Source: Firmicutes bacterium HGW-Firmicutes-12 (GTDB lineage Bacteria > Bacillota > Peptococcia > DRI-13 > PHAD01). From it: a stretch of 43,016 nucleotides of DNA. The position numbers were made by a program, and so were the translations under genes. Position 1 is the first letter of the stretch. Each line of letters starts with the position of its first letter. The notes below the pieces were generated by a model. It had not been told where the DNA came from. It searched no databases and worked only from the letters and a program-made list of their open reading frames with translations. The stretch spans positions 1 through 43,016 of the forward strand of contig PHAD01000006.1 in assembly GCA_002841595.1 (NCBI GenBank). The letters run 5' to 3'. Of this stretch, positions 30,871 through 42,392 are shown in pieces.

Positions 30871-31026
30871 GGGTTAATGCACATGGGCAATATAGGACTA
30901 ATTACTAGAATAAAACAGGGTTATAGACTGATGTCGAATATTATAACTTAATATAGAATATGAAATACGATGGAAAACATGCTATTGGAACCATATATCA
31001 AATTAAAAAGGAGAGGGTGTTTTAAA

Positions 31027-31215
31027 ATGTTATCTATCATTAAAAGACTGCTCACCGAAGAAAATGGTCAAGGTCTTGCCGAGTATGGACTTATTCTTGC
31101 GTTAGTTGCTCTTGCAACAGTAGGTGCACTCACTGCGCTTGGTGGAGGTCTAAACTCTATCTTTGGTCGTATCAACACACAGCTCAATGGGGCTGTACCT
31201 CCAACCGGTACTTAA
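31027..31215 (+). CDS. flp: Flp-type type IVb pilin
   Basis: 62 residues. A short basic leader is followed by the Flp processing motif G/QGLAEY (cleavage after Gly14, with Glu at +5 and Tyr at +6) and a hydrophobic stalk (L-I-L-A-L-V-A-L-A-T-V-G-A-L-T-A-L). This is the major subunit of Tad pili, cleaved by the prepilin peptidase encoded next and assembled by the CpaE/F-TadB/C machine downstream. The ATG at 31027 is chosen because AAGGAGAGGG (31008-31017) precedes it; an in-frame start at 30970 would put 19 non-leader residues in front. The C-terminal tail (V-P-P-T-G-T) is short. It is the only pilin gene in the window. Confidence 0.92.
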   Translation: MLSIIKRLLTEENGQGLAEYGLILALVALATVGALTALGGGLNSIFGRINTQLNGAVPPTGT

Positions 31216-31237
31216 GAATTGAATTAAATGGATAATG

Positions 31238-31267
31238 GGCCCTGCTTAAGTTTCCTTAGGTGGGGTC
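31238..31267 (+). other. Hairpin between pilin and prepilin peptidase genes
   Basis: A 13-pair stem including four G-U or wobble pairs (31238-31250 with 31255-31267) and a TTTC loop. No T run follows, so it is not a standard terminator. It could stabilise the pilin mRNA 3' end or limit read-through. Confidence 0.45.
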
Positions 31268-31301
31268 GCTTTGTCACAAACCAAGAAAAGGAGTGTTTTT
31301 C

Positions 31302-31790
31302 TTGTTGAGCATAGATTACGTTTTGATCGTGGTATTATTGATTTCAATCTATACGGATTTGCGTTTTCAAAAGATATATAACGTAGTTATTTTCCCGGCT
31401 GTCCTCTTTGCTTTGGGCTACCATTTGGCGATAGGTGGAGCCTACGGTATTTTATTCTCCCTAAAAGGCGCAGGCATAGGCCTGCTACTATTTCTTATAC
31501 CTTATTTATTAGGAGGACTTGGAGCAGGAGACGTAAAGCTTTTAGCCGTAGTGGGTGCATATAAAGGGATAGGATTTGTCTTATATAGTGCTTTAATAAC
31601 AGCTATCATAGGAGGAATAATCGCTTTAGCCATACTTCTCTACAGACGTGAATTGTTAAAGACTATATCCAGTCTACTTACAGGAATGAGGATTTGTCAT
31701 TTACCAACTTTAGCTGATGAAGGAAAGGTGAGTTTTCCGTACGGTGTAGCAATAGCGCTAGGCTCAATGACAAGTTACGTGGTGATGTAA
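31302..31790 (+). CDS. cpaA: Prepilin peptidase (CpaA/TadV, peptidase A24)
   Basis: 162 residues and about five to six membrane segments. The two catalytic Asp are visible: Y-T-D-L-R-F-x-K-I near the N-terminus and the G-x-G-D type motif G-A-G-D-V-K-L-L. It cleaves the Flp leader at the inner membrane face and probably also the TadE/TadG pseudopilins. The TTG at 31302 has AAAAGGAG 8 bases upstream; a longer frame from GTG 31260 would add a charged non-membrane stretch and lies in the hairpin. It is the small CpaA form, lacking the N-methylating zinc domain of PilD. The stop is one base before tadE. Confidence 0.9.
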   Translation: MLSIDYVLIVVLLISIYTDLRFQKIYNVVIFPAVLFALGYHLAIGGAYGILFSLKGAGIGLLLFLIPYLLGGLGAGDVKLLAVVGAYKGIGFVLYSALITAIIGGIIALAILLYRRELLKTISSLLTGMRICHLPTLADEGKVSFPYGVAIALGSMTSYVVM

Positions 31791-31791
31791 A

Positions 31792-32187
31792 ATGATAAAA
31801 AAGGTTATCCGCGAGAAAAAAGGACAAGCCTTGATAGAGTTTGCCTTCGTAATACCAATATTACTACTATTACTCTTTGGTATTGTAGAGTTTAGTAGGA
31901 TTTTCGGAGCTGAGCTTGTTGTGACCTACAGTGCTAGGGAAGGTGCTAGAACCGGGGCTGTAGGAGGAACAGATGAGGTCATCCGTTCACAAGTTCAAAA
32001 CGCTGCAGTTAACTTAGATCCTGCTGGGCTGGTAATAGTTATCAATCCAATAGAAACAGAAAGGACCAGGGGCCAGCAGTTAAGTGTAGAGGTTAGTTAT
32101 CCGGTGACGATTGTGGTTCCCTTAATTTCGATTATTACCGGAGATACAGTAATGGTAGGTTCTACATGTGTGATGAGAATTGAGTGA
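31792..32187 (+). CDS. tadE: TadE-family minor pilin/assembly protein
   Basis: 131 residues. A basic leader is followed by the TadE motif G-Q-A-L-I-E-F-A-F-V-I-P-I-L-L-L-L-L-F, in which the Glu at +5 marks a prepilin-like cleavage site, then E-F-S-R-I. The extracellular domain is small. TadE-like pseudopilins prime or tip the Tad pilus. The ATG at 31792 follows the peptidase stop by one base and overlaps its ribosome site with the upstream gene, indicating coupling. The end overlaps the upstream part of the next frame. Family and neighbours agree. Confidence 0.9.
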   Translation: MIKKVIREKKGQALIEFAFVIPILLLLLFGIVEFSRIFGAELVVTYSAREGARTGAVGGTDEVIRSQVQNAAVNLDPAGLVIVINPIETERTRGQQLSVEVSYPVTIVVPLISIITGDTVMVGSTCVMRIE

Positions 32188-32206
32188 CGATGAGGAGAGA
32201 GCTGTT

Positions 32207-33139
32207 ATGTATTTAATACGACTGAGGCTAAAAAGTCTTCTCAAGGATGAAAGAGGGATTGCGCTCATCATTATTACTTTAAGCTTATCACTTATAATGG
32301 TTTCCGTTGCTCTAGTTACAGATGTGGGACTGATGTTTAATAATAAAATACAGGTAGCTAATGCTGCTGACGCAGCAGTTCTAGCCGGAGTACAGGAGTT
32401 GCCTGCTAATGAGGCTTCCGCAGAAACCATAGCCTTGGATTACGCAACACGCAACAAGATAGATGACATTACGGTTAGCATAAGCCCGGATAAGCGCGAA
32501 ATTACCGTAACCGCTAAACGTACCATTGATCTTTTTTTTGCGAGAGTCTTTGGTTTTAACGATAGTACGGCCTCAGCACAGGCAAAAGCGAAACTAGAAC
32601 CACTGACAGGTGTGAAGGGGGTTGTTCCGCTCGGAGTAGAGGAACAAACGTTTATCTTTGGAGAAACATATGTACTCAAATATGCCGGAGGTGATGATCC
32701 GGAAGGGGATTATCATTCTGGTTGGTTGGGGATATTGGCCTTGCAAGGACCGGGAGCCAAGCTCTACTTGGAAGATTTAAAAGATGGGTTTGATGAGGAA
32801 ATTAAGATTGGGGATGTTCTCAACATTCAGACCGGGAATATATCCGGGAACACCTATGAGGGTATTCAATACAGGATTGACCGTTGCAACCATATTCCTT
32901 ATTGTGCAAATGATCATTACGATCCCGGCTGCCCAAGGGTACTATTAGTGCCTGTAATTGAGGAGTACGCAGATAAACAGGTGCGTGTGAAGGGTTTTTC
33001 TGCTTTTTTGGTGGATGAGGTAGAAGGGATGGGAACCGAAAATTATATCACAGGTCATTTTGTTCAGCTAACAATTGGTGGTTCGAGTGATCCTGCGGGT
33101 CCTGAAAACGGGATTTATGTACCCAGACTGGTAGAGTAG
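32207..33139 (+). CDS. tadG: TadG-like pilus assembly protein
   Basis: 310 residues. The N-terminal TadG-like segment (PF13400) reads D-E-R-G-I-A-L-I-I-I-T-L-S-L-S-L, followed by the typical D-V-G-L-M-F-x-N-K-I-Q-V-A-N-A-A-D-A-A-V-L-A-G. The surface domain has a Cys-rich patch (about 225-250: R-C-N-H-I-P-Y-C and later D-P-G-C-P-R), probably disulphide- or metal-linked, seen in many Firmicute TadG relatives. The ATG at 32207 is set by GAGGAGAG (32192-32199), against a TTG at 32180 inside tadE. It lacks the von Willebrand domain of longer TadG proteins. It is likely membrane-anchored and exposed outside. Confidence 0.85.
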   Translation: MYLIRLRLKSLLKDERGIALIIITLSLSLIMVSVALVTDVGLMFNNKIQVANAADAAVLAGVQELPANEASAETIALDYATRNKIDDITVSISPDKREITVTAKRTIDLFFARVFGFNDSTASAQAKAKLEPLTGVKGVVPLGVEEQTFIFGETYVLKYAGGDDPEGDYHSGWLGILALQGPGAKLYLEDLKDGFDEEIKIGDVLNIQTGNISGNTYEGIQYRIDRCNHIPYCANDHYDPGCPRVLLVPVIEEYADKQVRVKGFSAFLVDEVEGMGTENYITGHFVQLTIGGSSDPAGPENGIYVPRLVE

Positions 33140-33185
33140 TTGAGAAATCGGGTATTACTTATATTGGTAGGCGGGAGGGAAATCC

Positions 33186-33899
33186 TTGAAAAGCAAATAT
33201 ATCATGATCCTTTCATTAATATTTGGTTTGTTGACAGCTTATTTGATCTATAACTTCCTAGTAGAGACAAAACAGTCTATGAATGACACTCAGTATGGCG
33301 AGGTAGTAGTTGCGGCAGTGGATGTTTTAGGCAAAACGCAGGTTACAAATGAAATGCTACAAGTAATGAAGGTTCCTGTGGAATACATACATCCTTTAGC
33401 TATTCGTGAAAAGAATAATGCGGTCGGCAAAATTACTAATACTGCCATATCACAAGGCGAAGAGATATTGCAAAACAAACTTATAGATATAGGTGAAGTA
33501 AATTATGGTCTTTCTTATGCGGTACCGTTGGGCAAACGTGCTGTAACGATAGCTGTAGATGATGTGAGCGGGATTTCTGGATTAATCAAGCCCGGTGATA
33601 AGGTTGATGTGGCAGCGGTTGTAAATCTTCCTGAAGAAGGTGGACAAAAGGAAGTACCTAATGCATTGGTAGTACTTCAAGACGTTCAGGTGTTGGCAGT
33701 GGGTATAACAATGGAGGATCGAAGCGGCGGAAAAGGGACCCTGGATTATAAGAATATAACCGTAGCTGTGACAGTTGAGGATGCACGTCCGCTTATTCTA
33801 GCCAGCCAAAAAGGTGTTATTCGTCTGATGCTTCGTTCGCCAATTGACACTAGTACTGTGGTAACTGAGCCGTTTAGCCCTGAAGAATTCCTGCCTTAA
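33186..33899 (+). CDS. cpaB: Flp pilus assembly protein CpaB/RcpC (SAF domain)
   Basis: 237 residues with one N-terminal membrane segment (about 5-22) and a SAF domain (about 42-105: V-V-A-A-V-D-V-L-G, P-L-A-I-R-E, G-K-I-T-N-T-A-I-S-Q-G-E), followed by the RcpC/CpaB region with the diagnostic R-A-V-T-I-A-V-D-D-V-S-G-I-S-G-L-I-K-P-G-D-K-V-D. In diderms CpaB helps the secretin channel; in monoderms it probably contacts the wall or pilus base. The TTG at 33186 has GGGAGGG 6 bases upstream. Order tadG-cpaB-cpaE-cpaF is the standard Firmicute Tad layout. Confidence 0.92.
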   Translation: MKSKYIMILSLIFGLLTAYLIYNFLVETKQSMNDTQYGEVVVAAVDVLGKTQVTNEMLQVMKVPVEYIHPLAIREKNNAVGKITNTAISQGEEILQNKLIDIGEVNYGLSYAVPLGKRAVTIAVDDVSGISGLIKPGDKVDVAAVVNLPEEGGQKEVPNALVVLQDVQVLAVGITMEDRSGGKGTLDYKNITVAVTVEDARPLILASQKGVIRLMLRSPIDTSTVVTEPFSPEEFLP

Positions 33900-33981
33900 A
33901 CAATAGACATATTTAAAGCGGTATCATGGAGTCTTGATGGAACTCAATGGATTAAAGAACTAAAGAAGGTGGTGAAATAAT

Positions 33982-35229
33982 ATGGAGCCTATACGCATTC
34001 TGGTGGTAGATGATGTGGAAGAGACAAGAGATAATATCCGCCGAATTCTTTCCTTTGATAAGGATATCGCCATAATTGGTGAAGGAAGAGATGGTTTAGA
34101 GGCAATACAAAAGGTTAAGGCGCTTAGCCCTGATATAGTTTTAATGGATATGAACATGCCCAGGTTAAATGGGATTGCGGCAACAGAAAAGATTATACTT
34201 GAAAACCCAGGTGTTGCCGTAATCTTCCTCAGTGTTCAAGGAGAAGCTGAATACCTTCGTAAGGCGATGATGGCGGGGGCACGTGATTATTTGGTAAAAC
34301 CATTTAGTGGGGATGAACTCGTTGAAACAATAAAGCGCGTTTATCAGCTTGAAAGTAGAAGAACAAATACTGGAAATAATCAAGGAGTCAAGACCTCTAA
34401 ACCACAAGTTGTCACAATATTTGGAACAAAGGGAGGGGTCGGAAAGACAACCATTGCTGTAAATACTGCAGTTCAGTTAGCTCAGGCAAAGAAGAAGGTT
34501 GTTATGGTAGATTTGGATCTTCAGTTTGGGGATATCTCAGTATTTCTAAATCTTTCACCGAAAAGAACAATTGCAGAACTCGCTCAGGAAGGTAATGAAC
34601 CCGATATTGACCTAATTGAGTCGTATATGATTCCTCATCTTTCAGGAATAAAAATTCTGCCTGCTCCGGGTCGGCCGGAATACGCGGAGCTTATTACGGC
34701 AGGACAGATCGAAAATATCATTGCTGTTCTTAAAAACCACTATGATTACGTAGTTATAGATACACCACCGTTATTTAATGATACAAACCTATGTGCTCTT
34801 GATCTGTCTTCGCAGGTATTTCTTGTCCTTTCATTGGACTTGGCAACAATCAAGAATGTTAAGTTGAGTCTGGAATTAATGCAAACTCTTCATCATATTG
34901 GAAAAACAAAATTGGTATTAAACCGTGCTTCAGAGGATATGGGGATCAAAGTGAACAATGCCGAGGAAACATTAGAATTCTTAATTGCTGCCCAGTTACC
35001 TAGTGATGGAAAGATATGTGTATCTGCCCTGAATAAGGGTATTCCCTTTGTTATTTCAGAACCAAATGCCAAGATTAGTCAAGCAGTACGCAATGTTACG
35101 GAACTAATTCTTCAAGACAAAGGATACCAGTCCCAACTCAAAGAGAAGAGAATGGGGAGTTTCTTGGGAAGGCTTTTTAAAGGCGGTTCCGATAATAACG
35201 TAAAAAGAGCATCTAATAGTGGGGAGTGA
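33982..35229 (+). CDS. cpaE: CpaE/TadZ: receiver domain fused to MinD/ParA-like ATPase
   Basis: 415 residues. The N-terminal receiver domain (about 4-120) keeps D10-D11, the acceptor D56 (I-V-L-M-D-M-N-M-P), a Ser in F-L-S-V and Lys in Y-L-V-K-P-F. A linker follows and then a ParA/MinD ATPase (about 140-385) with a deviant Walker A, K-G-G-V-G-K-T-T, and D-L-D-L-Q-F-G-D. TadZ/CpaE localises the pilus machine, usually to a pole, and recruits CpaF. In many Tad systems the receiver is degenerate; here all key residues are present, so phosphorylation control is plausible. AAGGTGGTG precedes the ATG at 33982. cpaF begins 6 bases after the stop. Confidence 0.93.
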   Translation: MEPIRILVVDDVEETRDNIRRILSFDKDIAIIGEGRDGLEAIQKVKALSPDIVLMDMNMPRLNGIAATEKIILENPGVAVIFLSVQGEAEYLRKAMMAGARDYLVKPFSGDELVETIKRVYQLESRRTNTGNNQGVKTSKPQVVTIFGTKGGVGKTTIAVNTAVQLAQAKKKVVMVDLDLQFGDISVFLNLSPKRTIAELAQEGNEPDIDLIESYMIPHLSGIKILPAPGRPEYAELITAGQIENIIAVLKNHYDYVVIDTPPLFNDTNLCALDLSSQVFLVLSLDLATIKNVKLSLELMQTLHHIGKTKLVLNRASEDMGIKVNNAEETLEFLIAAQLPSDGKICVSALNKGIPFVISEPNAKISQAVRNVTELILQDKGYQSQLKEKRMGSFLGRLFKGGSDNNVKRASNSGE

Positions 35230-35235
35230 TAGAAA

Positions 35236-36567
35236 GTGTCCTTACTAAAGCGCTTAGAAAAGGAGAAGGGAAACAAGATCATTATCGGCGCAGGAGAGGT
35301 CAAGAGTCAGACCGATAAAAATCAGGATCCCCACGAACAATTCAAAGCAAAGGTTCATGAAGAAATAATAGGAGAGGTAGATAACATTACCTCAGGCGTA
35401 GAAATGGGTTCGAAGGTTGAAGAGCTTGTTAACACGATATTAGATAGAGATGGAGCACATTTTACTCGTCTTGAAAGACAGAAAATAACAGCGGAGATAT
35501 TGGATGAGGTAGTGGGGCTTGGTCCAATAGAACAACTCTTAAAGGATGAGCAAATCTCAGAAATAATGGTGAATGGACCCAAAAATATATACGTGGAACG
35601 AAACGGAAAAATAGAACAAGTAAATTTTACTTTTCGTGATAATGAGCACGTGCTACATATAATAGATAAGATTGTATCTCCGATAGGGAGACGCATCGAT
35701 GAGGCAATGCCAATGGTAGATGCGCGTCTACCAGACGGTTCCCGCGTTAATGCAATTATTCCACCGCTATCCTTAGTCGGGCCCGTTATTACTATACGTA
35801 AATTCTTTCGTGATCCACTTACGATACAAGATTTAATTCGTTTTGGTACCCTTACACCAAAAATGGCGACCTTCTTAGAAGCTTGTGTTAAAGGCCGTCT
35901 AAACATAGTTATTTCAGGAGGTACAGGTAGCGGGAAAACCAGTACCCTAAATGTATTATCTTCATTTATTCCTGGTAATGAACGTATTGTCACTATTGAA
36001 GACTCAGCCGAGTTGCAGCTTCGTCAAGAGCATGTGATAACCTTGGAAACTCGCCCGCCAAATATTGAAGGGAAAGGGGCCATTACCATTAGGGATTTGG
36101 TTCGCAACTCTTTGCGCATGAGGCCCGAGCGGATCGTAGTTGGAGAGGTTCGTGCGGGAGAAGCTCTAGACATGCTTCAAGCTATGAATACAGGACATGA
36201 TGGATCATTGACAACAGGTCATGCCAATTCTTCACGTGATATCCTCTCTCGTTTAGAGACAATGGTATTAATGGCAGGAATGGATTTACCAGTAAGGGCA
36301 ATACGGGAACAAATGGCCTCAGCTATTGATCTTATTGTCCAGCAAGCTCGTTTGAGGGACGGGAGTCGTAAGATTATCAATATAACAGAAGTTTTAGGCA
36401 TGGAAGGTGATGTTATAACACTACAGGATGTCTTTGAATTTGAAGGCGAAGGTCTTGATGAGCGTGGCAAACTAAAGGGACATTTTAAGGCGACAGGAGT
36501 CAGGCCAAAATGTATGGACAAACTCCTTATGGCCGGTGTAGCTATACCCGAGGATGTATTTTTTTAA
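35236..36567 (+). CDS. cpaF: CpaF/TadA secretion ATPase
   Basis: 443 residues, a PilT/VirB11-like hexameric ATPase. It has an N-terminal domain with [12 protein letters not shown], Walker [11 protein letters not shown] (about 231-240), an Asp box (V-T-I-E-D-S-A-E-L), a His box with T-T-G-H-A-N-S, and Walker B-like [10 protein letters not shown]. It powers both extension and retraction of Tad pili from the cytoplasmic face, working with TadB and TadC. The GTG start at 35236 is 6 bases after the cpaE stop, with GGAG at 35222-35226. Full length; no missing motif. Confidence 0.95.
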
Positions 36568-36607
36568 TACAGTTCTATTGATATACAAACAGGGAGAGGT
36601 TATTCCT

Positions 36608-37576
36608 ATGAATGTTTTTTTTATATGTATATGTAGCTTTTTAGCTGTAGTCTTGGGCATCAATAGTCTTTATCTAATGTCAACACGGAATAAAAGGAAT
36701 ATGCACAGGCGCCTCGAAAAGATTTCCGCATCTTCTTTTAAAACAAAAATATTTAATGAGGATCATCATGAAAAAGGTGATATCAAAAAGAGCTTTTTCC
36801 AAAAGACAGGCAAACTACTGTTTCGTAAAGGGATGACCAAACAGATTGAGGAACAGCTGACCAAAGCAGATATCCCCTTAAGAGGTGAGGAGTTTCTACT
36901 GATTTGGATGTTGGTGGGCCTGCTTCCGGTATCTTTAGTTTACATAACTGTCCATAATATAGGACTAGTCTTTTTGGTGTATCTCATCGGAATACTATTA
37001 ATTCCATTAATGGTGAGGATAGCTCAGCAGAAGAAACTAAAGAAATTCAACCAACAGATCAGCGATACACTATCTATTATGGCTAACGCTCTACGAGCAG
37101 GATTTAGTTTTATACAGTCCATGGATATGGTTGGTCGGGAGATGCCGGTCCCTATTTCTAAAGAATTTGCCAGAACCTATAGGGAAATTAGTCTCGGTGC
37201 AATAACAGAGGAAGCCCTGCAAAAAATGGTTAAGCGAGTTTCAAGTGATGATCTGGATTTATTGGTAACCGCAGTTTTAATACAGCGGCAGGTTGGTGGA
37301 AACTTGGCTGAAGTTCTTGATAATATCTCTCATACGATACGGGAACGTATTAGGATAAAGGGCGAGATTAAAACACTTACAGCACAGGGCCGTATATCAG
37401 GGCTCGTTATTGGTATAATACCGCCTTGTTTAATCGTAGTGTTATTGCTAATTAATCCAGGCTATATGCAGCCACTGCTGTATACTCCAATAGGCTGGAC
37501 GCTACTGGCAGTAGGGGCTTTTGCAGAAATAATAGGAATTTTAATTATAAAGAAAATCATTACTATAGATTATTGA
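36608..37576 (+). CDS. tadB: TadB inner-membrane platform protein (T2SSF)
   Basis: 322 residues. One segment at the N-terminus, two in the middle (about 95-140) and two at the C-terminus (about 265-315) flank a T2SS F domain (about 160-280: S-I-M-A-N-A-L-R-A-G-F-S-F-I-Q-S and Q-R-Q-V-G-G-N-L-A-E-V-L-D). TadB with TadC forms the platform under the pilus driven by CpaF. The ATG at 36608 is favoured because GGGAGAGG (36592-36599) lies 8 bases upstream; an in-frame ATG at 36554 is inside cpaF. The stop overlaps the upstream region of tadC, with only 14 bases between genes. Confidence 0.92.
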   Translation: MNVFFICICSFLAVVLGINSLYLMSTRNKRNMHRRLEKISASSFKTKIFNEDHHEKGDIKKSFFQKTGKLLFRKGMTKQIEEQLTKADIPLRGEEFLLIWMLVGLLPVSLVYITVHNIGLVFLVYLIGILLIPLMVRIAQQKKLKKFNQQISDTLSIMANALRAGFSFIQSMDMVGREMPVPISKEFARTYREISLGAITEEALQKMVKRVSSDDLDLLVTAVLIQRQVGGNLAEVLDNISHTIRERIRIKGEIKTLTAQGRISGLVIGIIPPCLIVVLLLINPGYMQPLLYTPIGWTLLAVGAFAEIIGILIIKKIITIDY

Positions 37577-37590
37577 CAAGGAGTGAGAAC

Positions 37591-38520
37591 ATGCTGCAAA
37601 TTATTATGCTAAGCTTCATGTTTGTGTTTACCCTGTCAGTTTTGTTACTGCGGTTCATGTTTAGGAATAGACTTCTGTTAAATAAACGCTTAAAAGAAGT
37701 TACAACAAGTCAGCTCCAGACAAAGAAAAATGAGGAAGATTATTTGAACAAATCTTTTTTTGAACGTATCATTCAGCCGATTGTTTCCTTTGTAGCATTA
37801 GTTTTTTCACGCTTTATGCCATCCGAGAGTCGCCAAAAGTTACAACAAACCTTGCAACAGGCCGGCAATCCGGGGAATCTTAGGCCTCATGAGTATCAGT
37901 CGTTTCATTTATTGTTCACTATTATAAGTTTTATATTGGTATGGGTACTTACCACGGTGGCCAAAAAAAGTATTTCGGAGCAGTTAACCCTAATGTTATT
38001 GGTCATAGTAGGGGCAATTTTACTAAATAAAGTCTATCTCAACAACAGGATTAGAAAAAGAAAGACAGGATTATTAAAAGAACTCCCTGATGCGATGGAT
38101 CTTTTAACAGTAAGTGTCGAAGCAGGTCTGAGCTTTGATGCAGCTTTACTGCACGTTGTTGATAAGTCGAAGGGGGCTTTGGCAGAAGAATTTAGAACTA
38201 CCTTAAAGGAATTGCAGATGGGGAAATCACGCCGGGAAGCCTTAAGAGCTTTAGGCGAGCGGACAAATGTTGATGATCTGTTGACTTTTGTTGGTTCGAT
38301 GATCCAGGCTGATCAGCTCGGAGTTCCAATCAGCAGAATATTAAGGATACAAGCTGAGCAGGTTCGCACGAAAAGACGTCAGAGAGTAGAAGAAAAAGCT
38401 ATGAAAGCTCCTGTTAAAATGTTGATACCTCTTGTTTTTTTTATCTTCCCTAGTATCTTTATCGTTTTATTAGGACCTGCCGCTATCCAGATATATCAAA
38501 CACTTCTGACCAAATTTTAA
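37591..38520 (+). CDS. tadC: TadC inner-membrane platform protein (T2SSF)
   Basis: 309 residues with the TadB-like layout: an N-terminal segment, two central segments (about 110-150), a T2SS F domain (about 165-290: L-P-D-A-M-D-L-L-T-V-S-V-E-A-G-L-S-F-D-A-A) and a C-terminal segment (P-L-V-F-F-I-F-P-S-I-F-I-V-L-L-G-P-A). The conserved E-A-G-L-S-F-D-A motif separates TadC from TadB. The ATG at 37591 has AAGGAGTGAG 5-7 bases upstream. It is the last core Tad gene; the glycosyltransferase follows after 39 bases with no terminator between. Confidence 0.93.
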   Translation: MLQIIMLSFMFVFTLSVLLLRFMFRNRLLLNKRLKEVTTSQLQTKKNEEDYLNKSFFERIIQPIVSFVALVFSRFMPSESRQKLQQTLQQAGNPGNLRPHEYQSFHLLFTIISFILVWVLTTVAKKSISEQLTLMLLVIVGAILLNKVYLNNRIRKRKTGLLKELPDAMDLLTVSVEAGLSFDAALLHVVDKSKGALAEEFRTTLKELQMGKSRREALRALGERTNVDDLLTFVGSMIQADQLGVPISRILRIQAEQVRTKRRQRVEEKAMKAPVKMLIPLVFFIFPSIFIVLLGPAAIQIYQTLLTKF

Positions 38521-38559: not shown

Positions 38560-39258
38560 GTGATATCAATTATTGTCCCTGTTTATAATGAGGAGAAGCA
38601 TATTCTAAATACGTTGGAGGAATTAAAGAAGACGCTACAACAGCTTGAAGACTATGAAATAATTGTTGTTAATGATGGCAGTACGGATAACACATATAAG
38701 GTAGTTGCAGAGATAAATGGTATACGAGTAATTTCCTATTATAATAATAAAGGCAAGGGCTTCGCTCTTAGAAAAGGGATCGCCCAAGCTAGAGGACAGT
38801 TGGTAGGCTTTATTGATGGGGATGGAGAAATATCGCCGCGTTTTATTGAGCCTTTATATGCAGAAATAAAAAAAGGAAAAGCTGATATTGTAGTTGGTAA
38901 AAAGCTTAACCTGAAGAAAAATATCGTGCGTAAGCTTTTTTCACTAGCCTTTCGGGTTGTAAGTTTCACGCTATTTGGCTTATCTATTGATACACAAACT
39001 GGAATAAAAATATTTAATAAAAAGGTGAAGGCTTTACAGGTGCAGAATGATAGTTATCTTTTTGATCTTGAGCTGTTAATAGCCTGTAAGGAAAAAAGCT
39101 TGAGGATAAAGGAAATACCAGTTAGGATTTCTACTGTGCACAAGACCAGCCGTATCGGTGTTAGAGAGGCGCTGGAAATGTTTTTTAATCTTATTAATAT
39201 TAAAATCGGGAGGCAGTCGTGTACAAATCAGCAAAACTATGGGTATTATTTATACTAA
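38560..39258 (+). CDS. Family 2 glycosyltransferase (DPM1/ArnC-like)
   Basis: 232 residues. The GT-A fold begins at the very N-terminus: I-S-I-I-V-P-V-Y-N-E-E, then V-V-N-D-G-S-T-D-N-T and the metal motif D-G-D-G-E. A later D-T-Q-T-G-I-K-I-F-N-K marks the polyprenyl-phosphate glycosyltransferase group (DPM1, ArnC). There is no membrane segment, so it acts at the cytoplasmic face, probably loading a sugar onto undecaprenyl phosphate. GTG 38560 has GGGGTG 6 bases upstream; GTG 38551 is an alternative. Its 3' end overlaps the next gene by 40 bases. It heads a three-gene sugar cassette behind the Tad operon. Confidence 0.88.
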   Translation: MISIIVPVYNEEKHILNTLEELKKTLQQLEDYEIIVVNDGSTDNTYKVVAEINGIRVISYYNNKGKGFALRKGIAQARGQLVGFIDGDGEISPRFIEPLYAEIKKGKADIVVGKKLNLKKNIVRKLFSLAFRVVSFTLFGLSIDTQTGIKIFNKKVKALQVQNDSYLFDLELLIACKEKSLRIKEIPVRISTVHKTSRIGVREALEMFFNLINIKIGRQSCTNQQNYGYYLY

Positions 39259-40754
39259 TTATCCTTCTGGTGAATAGCAATATGTTCATTATTGTATCCG
39301 GATTATCCGATGGAGAATTTCTCGGTAAAGCTATTGTTGGGGATGCGGACTATTCTACGTATATCACAAAAATGAAAATTGGCTATGAAGGTGGCTGGCA
39401 ATATGTTAACAAATACACGACGGAGCCCCATGATTCCTCATATATTTTCCTCTTTTATTTATTTTTAGGGCACTTAGCGGCTATTTTTCACCTTGACTTG
39501 CATTTAACCTTTCATGCGGCTAGGTTTATCTTAGCTTTCTTTGCCTTAAAGGTGCTATATCGATTTTTTCAAAAGTATTCAGATGAGACGGAGATTTTGC
39601 CGATATTCCTTCTAGCTGTATTTATAAGCGGGTCCTATAATACGGCGATTGATATAGCTCCACAGTATCACCTTTATGCGGGCATGATGGGATTCACGCA
39701 TTACATGTTAACGCTGATATGTTTACTCGTATTCTTTGATAGTGTACTAGATTATGCTAATAGGAAGGGCAAAGGCAATCTACTTAAATCTGTCCTCGCT
39801 TTGAATGTTCTTGCTGTCGTTCATCCCTTCATGGTAGTGCTGGCGGGTCTGGTTATTACCGGTACTGTTATCGCAACTAAAAAGTTGGCTAAAACGCTAC
39901 CGATTCTATCAATTTCAGCGGTGAGCAGTATGCCAGCGATGCTATATTTTTTCTATATCTTTACCACAAATCCCGCCTTGATTGGTTGGAGAGCACAGGC
40001 TGTTGCGGATTTGCCCCATGTTTATCATTTATTTTTATATGGACTGGGCTCCTTAATGGCTTATTGCACGATAGTATTATGGATTAAGAAAAAAATCACT
40101 ATAGCAGATTCTTCCGTTCTATTTATTGTATGGCTGCTTACAGCCCTTGTCTTATCCTTTACTAACCTAATAACTAGTCCTTTACAGTGGTTTTTCTTTG
40201 CCTCAGTTCCCGTAGCATATTTAAGTTATAAATTCATTAGATATTTGGATAGTAAGGCAGCCTTTAAAATTGTATACAAAGGTAGAAGCGTTGTATCCTT
40301 ACTTATCCTTGTTATGCTAGTGATACCGACCGCGGATATGTTATTCTTGATAGATCATTCAGCGGTATATATGTTGAAGCACAAAGAAGAATTTAATCAA
40401 AGCATAATCTTTTCTGAGGATATGAAGTGCTACGAATGGCTTCGAGAAAATGCTGATACAAGTGATATCATTCTTGCTGATGAAAGAATAGGAAATATAA
40501 TTCCCTTTGTAACTAACAGTATTACGTTTATCGGCCATCAACATGAAACCCTGGACTATGAAAATAAGCTAAAAAAAGTCGAGCTGTTACTAGATGGAAG
40601 CTATACTAAACAGGAAGCTGTCGGGTTTTTAGAAGAAAGCAAAATAAAATACATTATATATAATAAAGGTGAGAAGACGGGATATGAATTTCTTACACAC
40701 ATTCTGTCAGGCCGTACCATAACCTTATACAAATATGCAGGGAGTAAAGAATAA
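39219..40754 (+). CDS. Polytopic membrane protein, GT-C glycosyltransferase-like
   Basis: 511 residues with about 11 membrane segments and a soluble C-terminal domain (about 395-505). The first outside loop has D-A-D-Y-S-T-Y, an acidic site comparable with the GT-C catalytic loop. The tail has C-Y-E-W-L-R-E-N-A and later F-I-G-H-Q-H-E-T-L-D-Y and I-K-Y-I-I-Y, the pattern found in GT-C-like proteins that use polyprenyl-linked sugars. It would transfer the sugar made by the upstream GT2 to an outside acceptor. CGGGAGG lies 5 bases before the GTG at 39219, inside the GT2 gene. The next gene starts on the last base of its stop codon. The GT-C call is pattern-based. Confidence 0.7.
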   Translation: MYKSAKLWVLFILIILLVNSNMFIIVSGLSDGEFLGKAIVGDADYSTYITKMKIGYEGGWQYVNKYTTEPHDSSYIFLFYLFLGHLAAIFHLDLHLTFHAARFILAFFALKVLYRFFQKYSDETEILPIFLLAVFISGSYNTAIDIAPQYHLYAGMMGFTHYMLTLICLLVFFDSVLDYANRKGKGNLLKSVLALNVLAVVHPFMVVLAGLVITGTVIATKKLAKTLPILSISAVSSMPAMLYFFYIFTTNPALIGWRAQAVADLPHVYHLFLYGLGSLMAYCTIVLWIKKKITIADSSVLFIVWLLTALVLSFTNLITSPLQWFFFASVPVAYLSYKFIRYLDSKAAFKIVYKGRSVVSLLILVMLVIPTADMLFLIDHSAVYMLKHKEEFNQSIIFSEDMKCYEWLRENADTSDIILADERIGNIIPFVTNSITFIGHQHETLDYENKLKKVELLLDGSYTKQEAVGFLEESKIKYIIYNKGEKTGYEFLTHILSGRTITLYKYAGSKE

Positions 40755-41104
40755 TGATTTATGCAGTTATTAGTATTGCGATTGCCTCTATCGGACAGGC
40801 CATTTTAAAAAGCTCACTCAATGGGTTAGAGCTTAAAGAAGCTAGTCTGAATATAAAATTTGTGACAACTATATTTGCGGATGGGCAAATACTAATAGGA
40901 TTAGGTTGTTACGGTGTTAGCGCTGTTTTATGGCTTTATGCTCTGAGTAAATGTAGCTTAAGCAGGCTGTATCCTTTTACAGCGTTAAGTTTTGTGCTGG
41001 TTATTTTACTTTCTCGTTATATTCTAGGAGAAAATATTAGTTCCAATCAGTCCCTTGGCATAGGCCTGGTTATTCTAGGGCTTTTTGTAGGTAGCGTTAG
41101 ATGA
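40754..41104 (+). CDS. Small EamA/EmrE-like transporter (ArnE/ArnF-like)
   Basis: 116 residues with four membrane segments, the size and layout of the small multidrug resistance/ArnE group. The C-terminal half has L-S-R-L-Y-P-F-T-A-L-S-F-V-L-V, then L-G-E-x-I-x-x-x-Q-x-L-G-I-G-L-V-I-L-G, as in EamA and ArnE/F subunits. In the Arn pathway such proteins flip undecaprenyl-phosphate aminoarabinose. Here it would flip the lipid-linked sugar between GT2 (inside) and the GT-C-like protein (outside). The ATG at 40754 overlaps the upstream TAA by one base (TAATG), a tight coupling that supports one pathway. Confidence 0.85.
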   Translation: MIYAVISIAIASIGQAILKSSLNGLELKEASLNIKFVTTIFADGQILIGLGCYGVSAVLWLYALSKCSLSRLYPFTALSFVLVILLSRYILGENISSNQSLGIGLVILGLFVGSVR

Positions 41105-41129
41105 ATAGGTAATACTAGGAGGGGTAGTT

Positions 41130-41489
41130 ATCAAAGAAGTTGTGATAATGAAAGATGGAAGTGTCATCGGATCAAATATTAAGGTAGCAGATAATTTTAT
41201 TCATCGTCTTATTGGTCTGATGGGAAAGAAGTGTTTGCTGCATGGAGAAGGCTTACTTCTTAAGGGCTGTCGGCAGATACATACTTTTTTTATGTTTATG
41301 ACGATAGACGTAGTGTTTTTAGATAGAAGTGGCGAGGTCGTTGATATACAAAAGGCGATGACCCCGTGTAAAGTAAGCCCATATGTGAAAAAGGCTTATC
41401 AGGTTTTAGAGCTACCTCAGGGAACTATTGAGCAGTACGCTATACAAAAAAAGGTGATGCTAAAGGTAGGAAGAGTCGATATACCCTAA
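41130..41489 (+). CDS. DUF192 family protein, probable ATC start
   Basis: About 119 residues if it starts at ATC 41130, or 115 from GTG 41142. Family marks are V-A-D-N-F-I-H-R-L-I-G-L-M-G-K, C-R-Q-I-H-T-F-F-M-F-M-T-I-D-V-V-F-L-D and V-L-E-L-P-Q-G-T-I. DUF192 proteins are small, of unsettled role, and often found near Tad loci or as secreted proteins. AGGAGGGG (41117-41124) lies 5 bases before ATC 41130 but 17 before the GTG. The extra residues I-K-E-V-V also match the usual N-terminal strand of the family. Both facts point to a rare ATC start, but no experimental evidence exists. It follows the transporter by 25 bases. Confidence 0.8.
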   Translation: MKEVVIMKDGSVIGSNIKVADNFIHRLIGLMGKKCLLHGEGLLLKGCRQIHTFFMFMTIDVVFLDRSGEVVDIQKAMTPCKVSPYVKKAYQVLELPQGTIEQYAIQKKVMLKVGRVDIP

Positions 41490-42346: not shown

Positions 42347-42392
42347 AAAACAAGGCCCTCAGTTTTTGATTAAACTGGGGGCCTTGTTTTTT
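42347..42392 (+). terminator. Strong terminator after codY
   Basis: AACAAGGCCCTCAGTTT pairs with AAACTGGGGGCCTTGTT (one G-U), a 17-pair stem with a 6-base loop, then a T run to 42392. Confidence 0.93.

Follow-up and report, generated by a model that had tools for sequence, protein, structure and literature searches.

A putative glycosylation cassette inserted between tadC and the DUF192 gene of a Tad pilus locus in Firmicutes bacterium HGW-Firmicutes-12

The stretch of DNA analysed here (hereafter, the window) comprises 43,016 nucleotides of a contig of Firmicutes bacterium HGW-Firmicutes-12 and carries a Tad pilus locus. Downstream of the final Tad gene, tadC, there is a cassette of three genes which encode: (i) a glycosyltransferase of family GT2; (ii) a 511-aa protein with a predicted GT-C fold; and (iii) a small EamA/ArnF-like protein. 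The features of this region are the following:

30970..37576, + strand: upstream Tad genes (Flp pilin, prepilin peptidase, TadE, TadG, CpaB, CpaE, TadA, TadB)
37573..38520, + strand: tadC, the final Tad gene upstream of the cassette (T2SSF, 5.6e-20)
38560..39258, + strand: GT2, a GT-A fold glycosyltransferase (PF00535, 2e-32)
39219..40754, + strand: predicted GT-C fold glycosyltransferase, 511 aa (AlphaFold model, structural matches)
40754..41104, + strand: EamA/ArnF-like four-helix protein, 116 aa, putative sugar-lipid flippase (EamA 4e-9, ArnF 5e-15)
41142..41489, + strand: DUF192 gene, at the far edge of the insertion (PF02643, 1.4e-19; adjacency survey)
42347..42390, + strand: strong terminator-like hairpin 3' of CodY, the first strong one past tadC

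According to the open reading frames, the GT2 gene starts at GTG 38551 or, more likely, at GTG 38560, and the GT-C gene starts at GTG 39219, with GGGAGG 5 nt upstream. The genes of the cassette are tightly packed: as a preliminary description of this DNA had stated, GT2 and GT-C overlap by 40 bp, and GT-C and the flippase gene by 1 bp (TAATG), both overlaps being found again in the ORF coordinates. The same description had pointed to the lack of a terminator between tadC and the cassette, and our scan agrees: nothing resembling a terminator was found from the tadC stop (38520) to the cassette, and the strongest site of the scanned region is that at 42347-42390, 3' of CodY. It had also placed the cassette at the end of the Tad operon. 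The cassette does follow tadC, but DUF192 comes next, after a gap of about 26-38 bp, and the cassette thus lies inside a conserved string of genes. Regarding the start of DUF192, a Shine-Dalgarno sequence (AGGAGG) is present near 41118, followed by ATC AAA GAA at 41130 (window positions 41116-41150); the first canonical start, GTG 41142, lies much farther from that Shine-Dalgarno sequence, and the gene may start at a non-canonical ATC.

Corresponding Tad loci were compared in 12 genomes of the same order, whose TadC proteins are 35-68% identical (most of them, 49-61%). In 11 of these 12 loci, tadC is followed by DUF192, either directly or as the next recognised gene, and in one by CodY; none of the 12 carries the cassette. 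A larger survey covered 80 loci with TadA; 73 of these have a gene directly after tadC, which in 53 cases is DUF192. Since DUF192 normally comes directly after tadC in the relatives, the cassette is an insertion into a conserved tadC-DUF192 string. As for signs of mobile elements at the cassette, neither convincing flanking repeats nor a shift in composition was found. The adjacency of tadC and DUF192 (COG1430) is conserved across Tad loci (L066-L076, L102-L150). The window genome has a second Tad-like locus (L079, G000:C43), with CpaE, TadA, TadB and TadC, where the cassette is absent.

In three-component transmembrane glycosylation, in general terms, undecaprenyl phosphate is loaded with a sugar inside the cell, flipped across the membrane, and the sugar is then transferred outside (PMC8035078, PMC11127046). 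The GT2 protein of the window would suit the first of these steps: it has no membrane helices, its NCBIfam neighbours are AglJ and PpgS (all under cut-off), and its matches among PDB sequences include dolichol-phosphate mannose synthase (DPMS) and ArnC. Judging from these matches, it is likely a polyprenyl-phosphate sugar synthase of the GT-A type that such systems employ. The small protein, in turn, has ArnF as its best NCBIfam model (5e-15; 56 bits vs a cut-off of 99) and is of the EamA type, neither GtrA nor Wzx. It is likely a sugar-lipid flippase, and its predicted transport role would correspond to that of the small co-encoded flippase of three-component systems. When the window's own genome was searched with PF00893, the sole match was a 306-aa open frame on a different contig.

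For the 511-aa protein, neither NCBIfam nor the PDB sequences gave a match and Pfam gave no significant one; of 12 homologues, a single one has a Pfam match (DUF6541). Its AlphaFold2 model, built from six sequences (pTM 0.77, mean pLDDT 67), was compared with the PDB using Foldseek, and the best 28 matches were all GT-C enzymes or domains: STT3 in OST complexes (2e-5), DPY19, AftA, AglB, PglB, ArnT and AftD stand at the top. For the full model, the VIA-align Z values were 12.6 for AftA, 11.9 for yeast OST, 11.7 for DPY19, 10.1 for PglB and 10.0 for ArnT; in a mostly helical model such values alone are not decisive, and the deciding point is that GT-C enzymes top the list over the whole length. 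On the basis of this model, the protein is a predicted glycosyltransferase of the GT-C fold, in agreement with the suggestion of the preliminary description, which had proposed structure prediction as a check.

The C-terminal domain (residues 386-511) was modelled with a mean pLDDT of 84.8 when taken alone, and its best 33 structural matches were again all GT-C enzymes. The Z values were 13.9 for yeast STT3, 12.3 for DPY19, 11.9 for AglB-S2, 9.0 for AftA and 7.3 for ArnT, and the next, unrelated match after the GT-C enzymes scores 4.8. In the model, then, this domain is nearest to STT3 and DPY19, enzymes with protein acceptors. A profile search of PDB sequences with the GT-C protein pointed to AglB-S2 (E 0.12, which by itself is not significant). 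The protein lacks the WWDYG motif of OST, the corresponding region reading LADERIGNIIP. The GT-C enzymes of three-component systems are expected to have 8-13 membrane helices and an acidic residue in an outer loop. Together with its fold, the window protein has about 10-11 helices (a rough count) and an acidic residue, Asp44, where the first helix following TM1 begins. Asp44 is conserved without exception in 12 of 12 homologues and, from its position, would be the catalytic Asp.

The preliminary description had regarded the three proteins as the three parts of an Arn-like pathway. In the broad sense this stands, in so far as the cassette combines a sugar-lipid synthase of the GT-A type, a flippase of the EamA/SMR type and a GT-C fold, but a strict Arn system does not. 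That the cassette makes and transfers 4-amino-4-deoxy-L-arabinose is extremely improbable: even if ArnF is the best NCBIfam model of the small protein and ArnT is among the structural matches of the GT-C protein (Z 10.0), the cut-offs were missed with the models for ArnC (GT2, 48.4 bits, cut-off 529) and for ArnE (small protein, 35.5 bits, cut-off 92) as well as ArnF. In addition, the GT-C protein has no PMT_2 domain according to Pfam, the membrane portion at the C-terminus of ArnC has no counterpart in GT2, and an inspection of the nearby ORFs revealed no Arn sugar genes.

Homologues were collected with the GT-C protein as the sole query, neighbourhood not being a criterion; in a contig scan, the single GT-C sequence gave no match and an alignment query did. 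Counting the window, 8 of the 10 clear Bacillota homologues are linked to Tad genes, and the organisation of the Tad locus takes at least three forms among them. The preliminary description had proposed to look for such a co-occurrence, and the result supports the Tad link that it suggested. All three genes, in the order GTC-EamA-GT2, are found in G242 (L078), Desulfotruncus alcoholivorax DSM 16058 (L081) and Desulforudis sp. SURF_60 (L082). The remaining Tad-linked cases are: (i) G458 (L093), with GTC-EamA and no adjoining GT2; (ii) G001, of the same family, with GT2 and GTC and no EamA, in the second Tad locus of that genome (L006, L031); (iii) G433 (L096), where GT-C adjoins tadC in convergent orientation; and (iv) G485 (L095), where GT-C lies near the prepilin peptidase and TadE genes, at a contig end. 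In G242, a terminator-like hairpin lies between TadE and the GT-C gene. No Tad genes were found near the homologue of G087 (L007, L084) or on the 12-kb contig of G430 (L094), and the two Chloroflexi homologues are not Tad-linked either.

Regarding the organisation of these loci, the window has the order Flp-PPep-TadE-TadG-CpaB-CpaE-TadA-TadB-TadC-DUF192; G242, Desulfotruncus and G458 have CpaB-CpaE-TadA-TadB-TadC-(Flp)-PPep-TadE; and the loci of G001 and Desulforudis are of a third type that diverges more. The family is rare: among the genomes sampled from the phylum, 3-4 of 398 contain it, as do 7 of 113 in the class of G242, and repeated searches of the phylum, on largely the same sample, gave no further homologue. 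Most of the Tad loci surveyed lack the cassette, and none was found in L100 and L101, two loci close to the G242 kind. In G001, the GT2 frame (L006:5911-6948) continues, with no stop codon, into that of a Flp-like pilin with its own strong Shine-Dalgarno sequence, GGGGGGAGGAG; this corresponds either to a fusion or to two in-frame genes with no intervening stop.

The recurrence of this linkage bears on the idea that an envelope cassette landed by chance between tadC and DUF192 and is functionally unconnected with the pilus. The 0 of 12 corresponding loci of the order with a cassette and a gene order in the window unlike that of the other cassettes are in line with this idea, which is nonetheless very unlikely, given that 8 of 10 homologues lie near Tad genes (P about 2e-9, assuming that 5% of the genome is near Tad, with shared ancestry uncorrected and the window counted).

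In the GT-C tree, whose root serves for drawing only, the window protein and its five nearest homologues form a clade (100/99) in which all members are Tad-linked, the remaining homologues falling outside. In the trees of GT2 and EamA, the window copies are long-branched and stand apart from those of the other Tad-linked cassettes, and the order of the genes is GT2-GTC-EamA in the window vs GTC-EamA-GT2 in the other complete cassettes. These two observations give no support to a common origin of the whole cassette. Given the placement of the window GT2 and EamA in the trees, the GT-C gene is the part whose Tad linkage is conserved, and its two partners may have joined it independently.

As a control, EamA homologues elsewhere in the order and phylum were inspected: they adjoin GT2 genes, away from Tad (L024-L028), three of them being accompanied by a GT-C protein of the PMT_2 type or similar, and the GT-C proteins of these cassettes fall outside the window family. 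EamA occurs in 4 of 80 Tad loci, always alongside a GT-C of the window family. The preliminary description had named a usual linkage to other envelope loci as something that would speak against a role in the pilus. This would fit the generic GT2-EamA pairs of the order, which are not near Tad genes (L024-L028), but not the GT-C family of the window. Other genomes of the order also have a separate cassette of GT2, EamA and a multispanning PMT_2 protein, away from Tad (L025:8359-10977, L026, L027).

The best reading of the cassette is that it attaches a single sugar, carried on a lipid, to a Tad pilus protein, and we consider it somewhat probable that it constitutes a three-component transmembrane glycosylation system serving that pilus. 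Under this proposal, (i) GT2 would load undecaprenyl phosphate, at the cytoplasmic face, with a sugar taken from a nucleotide sugar; (ii) the EamA/ArnF-like protein would flip the sugar-lipid across the membrane; and (iii) the GT-C enzyme would transfer the sugar to a protein of the Tad system at the outer face, most likely Flp, TadE or TadG. The gene layout, the protein families, the GT-C fold of the predicted model and the recurrent linkage with different Tad loci are observed, while a donor linked to lipid, its flipping and an acceptor from the Tad system are what we infer; a Tad protein is suggested as acceptor because of the Tad linkage and the likeness of the C-terminal domain to protein-acceptor enzymes. 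The linkage persists across differing organisations of the Tad locus, which supports the proposal, as do the all-Tad-linked clade of the GT-C tree, the terminator-free insertion between tadC and DUF192, and the location of the generic GT2-EamA cassettes away from Tad. Against the proposal, no clear enrichment in Ser/Thr was observed in the Flp tails of the cassette-bearing loci, most Tad loci surveyed are devoid of the cassette, a hairpin parts TadE from GT-C in G242, EamA is absent in G001 and an adjoining GT2 in G458, and the window GT2 and EamA fall apart from those of other Tad-linked cassettes. The whole analysis is based on predicted structures and on homologues that are few and partly related.

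Two other acceptors have to be weighed. The cassette might modify a wall polymer, an S-layer or an exopolysaccharide that acts together with Tad pili in adhesion, being co-expressed with them and leaving the pilus proteins untouched. Such a role would fit with most characterised Gram-positive three-component systems, which modify teichoic acids or wall polysaccharides (PMC8035078), with the glycan-acceptor enzymes AftA and AftD among the structural matches, and with the Chloroflexi and G087 homologues not being near Tad. We regard it as rather unlikely: the linkage recurs with Tad genes, not with wall polymer genes, and the C-terminal domain is nearer to protein-acceptor enzymes. It is less likely still that the acceptor is, instead of a pilin, some other secreted protein whose gene lies near a Tad locus, for example one of the Ig-like-domain proteins of 705-724 aa which lie directly upstream of GT-C in L082 and L006; none of this kind was recognised in the window Tad locus. 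These secreted proteins (PF25788; 705 aa at L082:7699-9816 and 724 aa at L006:7991-10165) are possibly pilus-associated proteins or targets of glycosylation.

Returning to the glycosylation of a Tad protein, a broader proposal can be put forward tentatively, as one about which we are close to evenly divided: a previously undescribed GT-C family with an OST/DPY19-like C-terminal domain would form, together with a polyprenyl-phosphate sugar synthase and an EamA flippase, a protein glycosylation system dedicated to Tad, which different Tad loci would have acquired more than once. In the open-licence literature, no paper was found that describes a three-component cassette at a Tad locus, nor an enzyme shown to glycosylate Tad (type IVc) pili; there is only the older suggestion on RcpC. 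Some Tad pili may carry their own sugar-coating kit. The analysis brings out a GT-C family in which nearly all the members found lack a Pfam model and whose C-terminal domain is like that of protein glycosyltransferases. Moreover, a compact, self-contained cassette recurs beside Tad loci, also in Desulfotruncus alcoholivorax DSM 16058, a deposited strain, and this makes the question directly testable.

Among known systems, ArnC, ArnE/F and ArnT are responsible for the Ara4N modification of lipid A. The cassette resembles them in its three-step layout, in ArnF being the best model for the flippase and in the GT-C fold of ArnT, but differs in the missed cut-offs, in the Arn sugar genes, not seen nearby, and in belonging to another GT-C family. 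With STT3/AglB/PglB and DPY19 the window protein shares the GT-C fold and a C-terminal globular domain (Z up to 13.9), while the WWDYG motif of STT3/AglB/PglB is missing from it. The GT2-flippase layout suggests a single sugar on a lipid monophosphate, as in DPY19, vs the oligosaccharide of OST.

RcpC, the CpaB homologue of Gram-negative Tad systems, was once implicated in the glycosylation of Flp, and newer work assigns it a structural role within the pilus alignment complex (PMC12307814). What it shares with the present case is that glycosylation of the Flp pilin had been suggested before; the consulted part of that source names no dedicated enzyme set (PMC12307814). In the multi-component systems of Gram-positive bacteria, such as CsbB-GtcA-YfhO, the known acceptors are teichoic acids and wall polysaccharides (PMC8035078). 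The cassette shares with CsbB-GtcA-YfhO a GT-A enzyme, a small flippase and a multi-spanning GT-C protein, and differs from it in that the flippase is of the EamA type instead of GtrA or Wzx, GT2 has no membrane helices, and the genes are located within a Tad operon. Finally, TfpW of Pseudomonas aeruginosa is a GT-C enzyme which adds D-arabinofuranose to type IVa pilins (PMC11841053), its donor being produced via a phosphoribosyl lipid (PMC11127046). Although the pilus is there of type IVa and the organism belongs to a different group, both cases have in common a GT-C enzyme encoded together with pilus genes and a lipid-linked sugar donor, which for the cassette is a presumed one.
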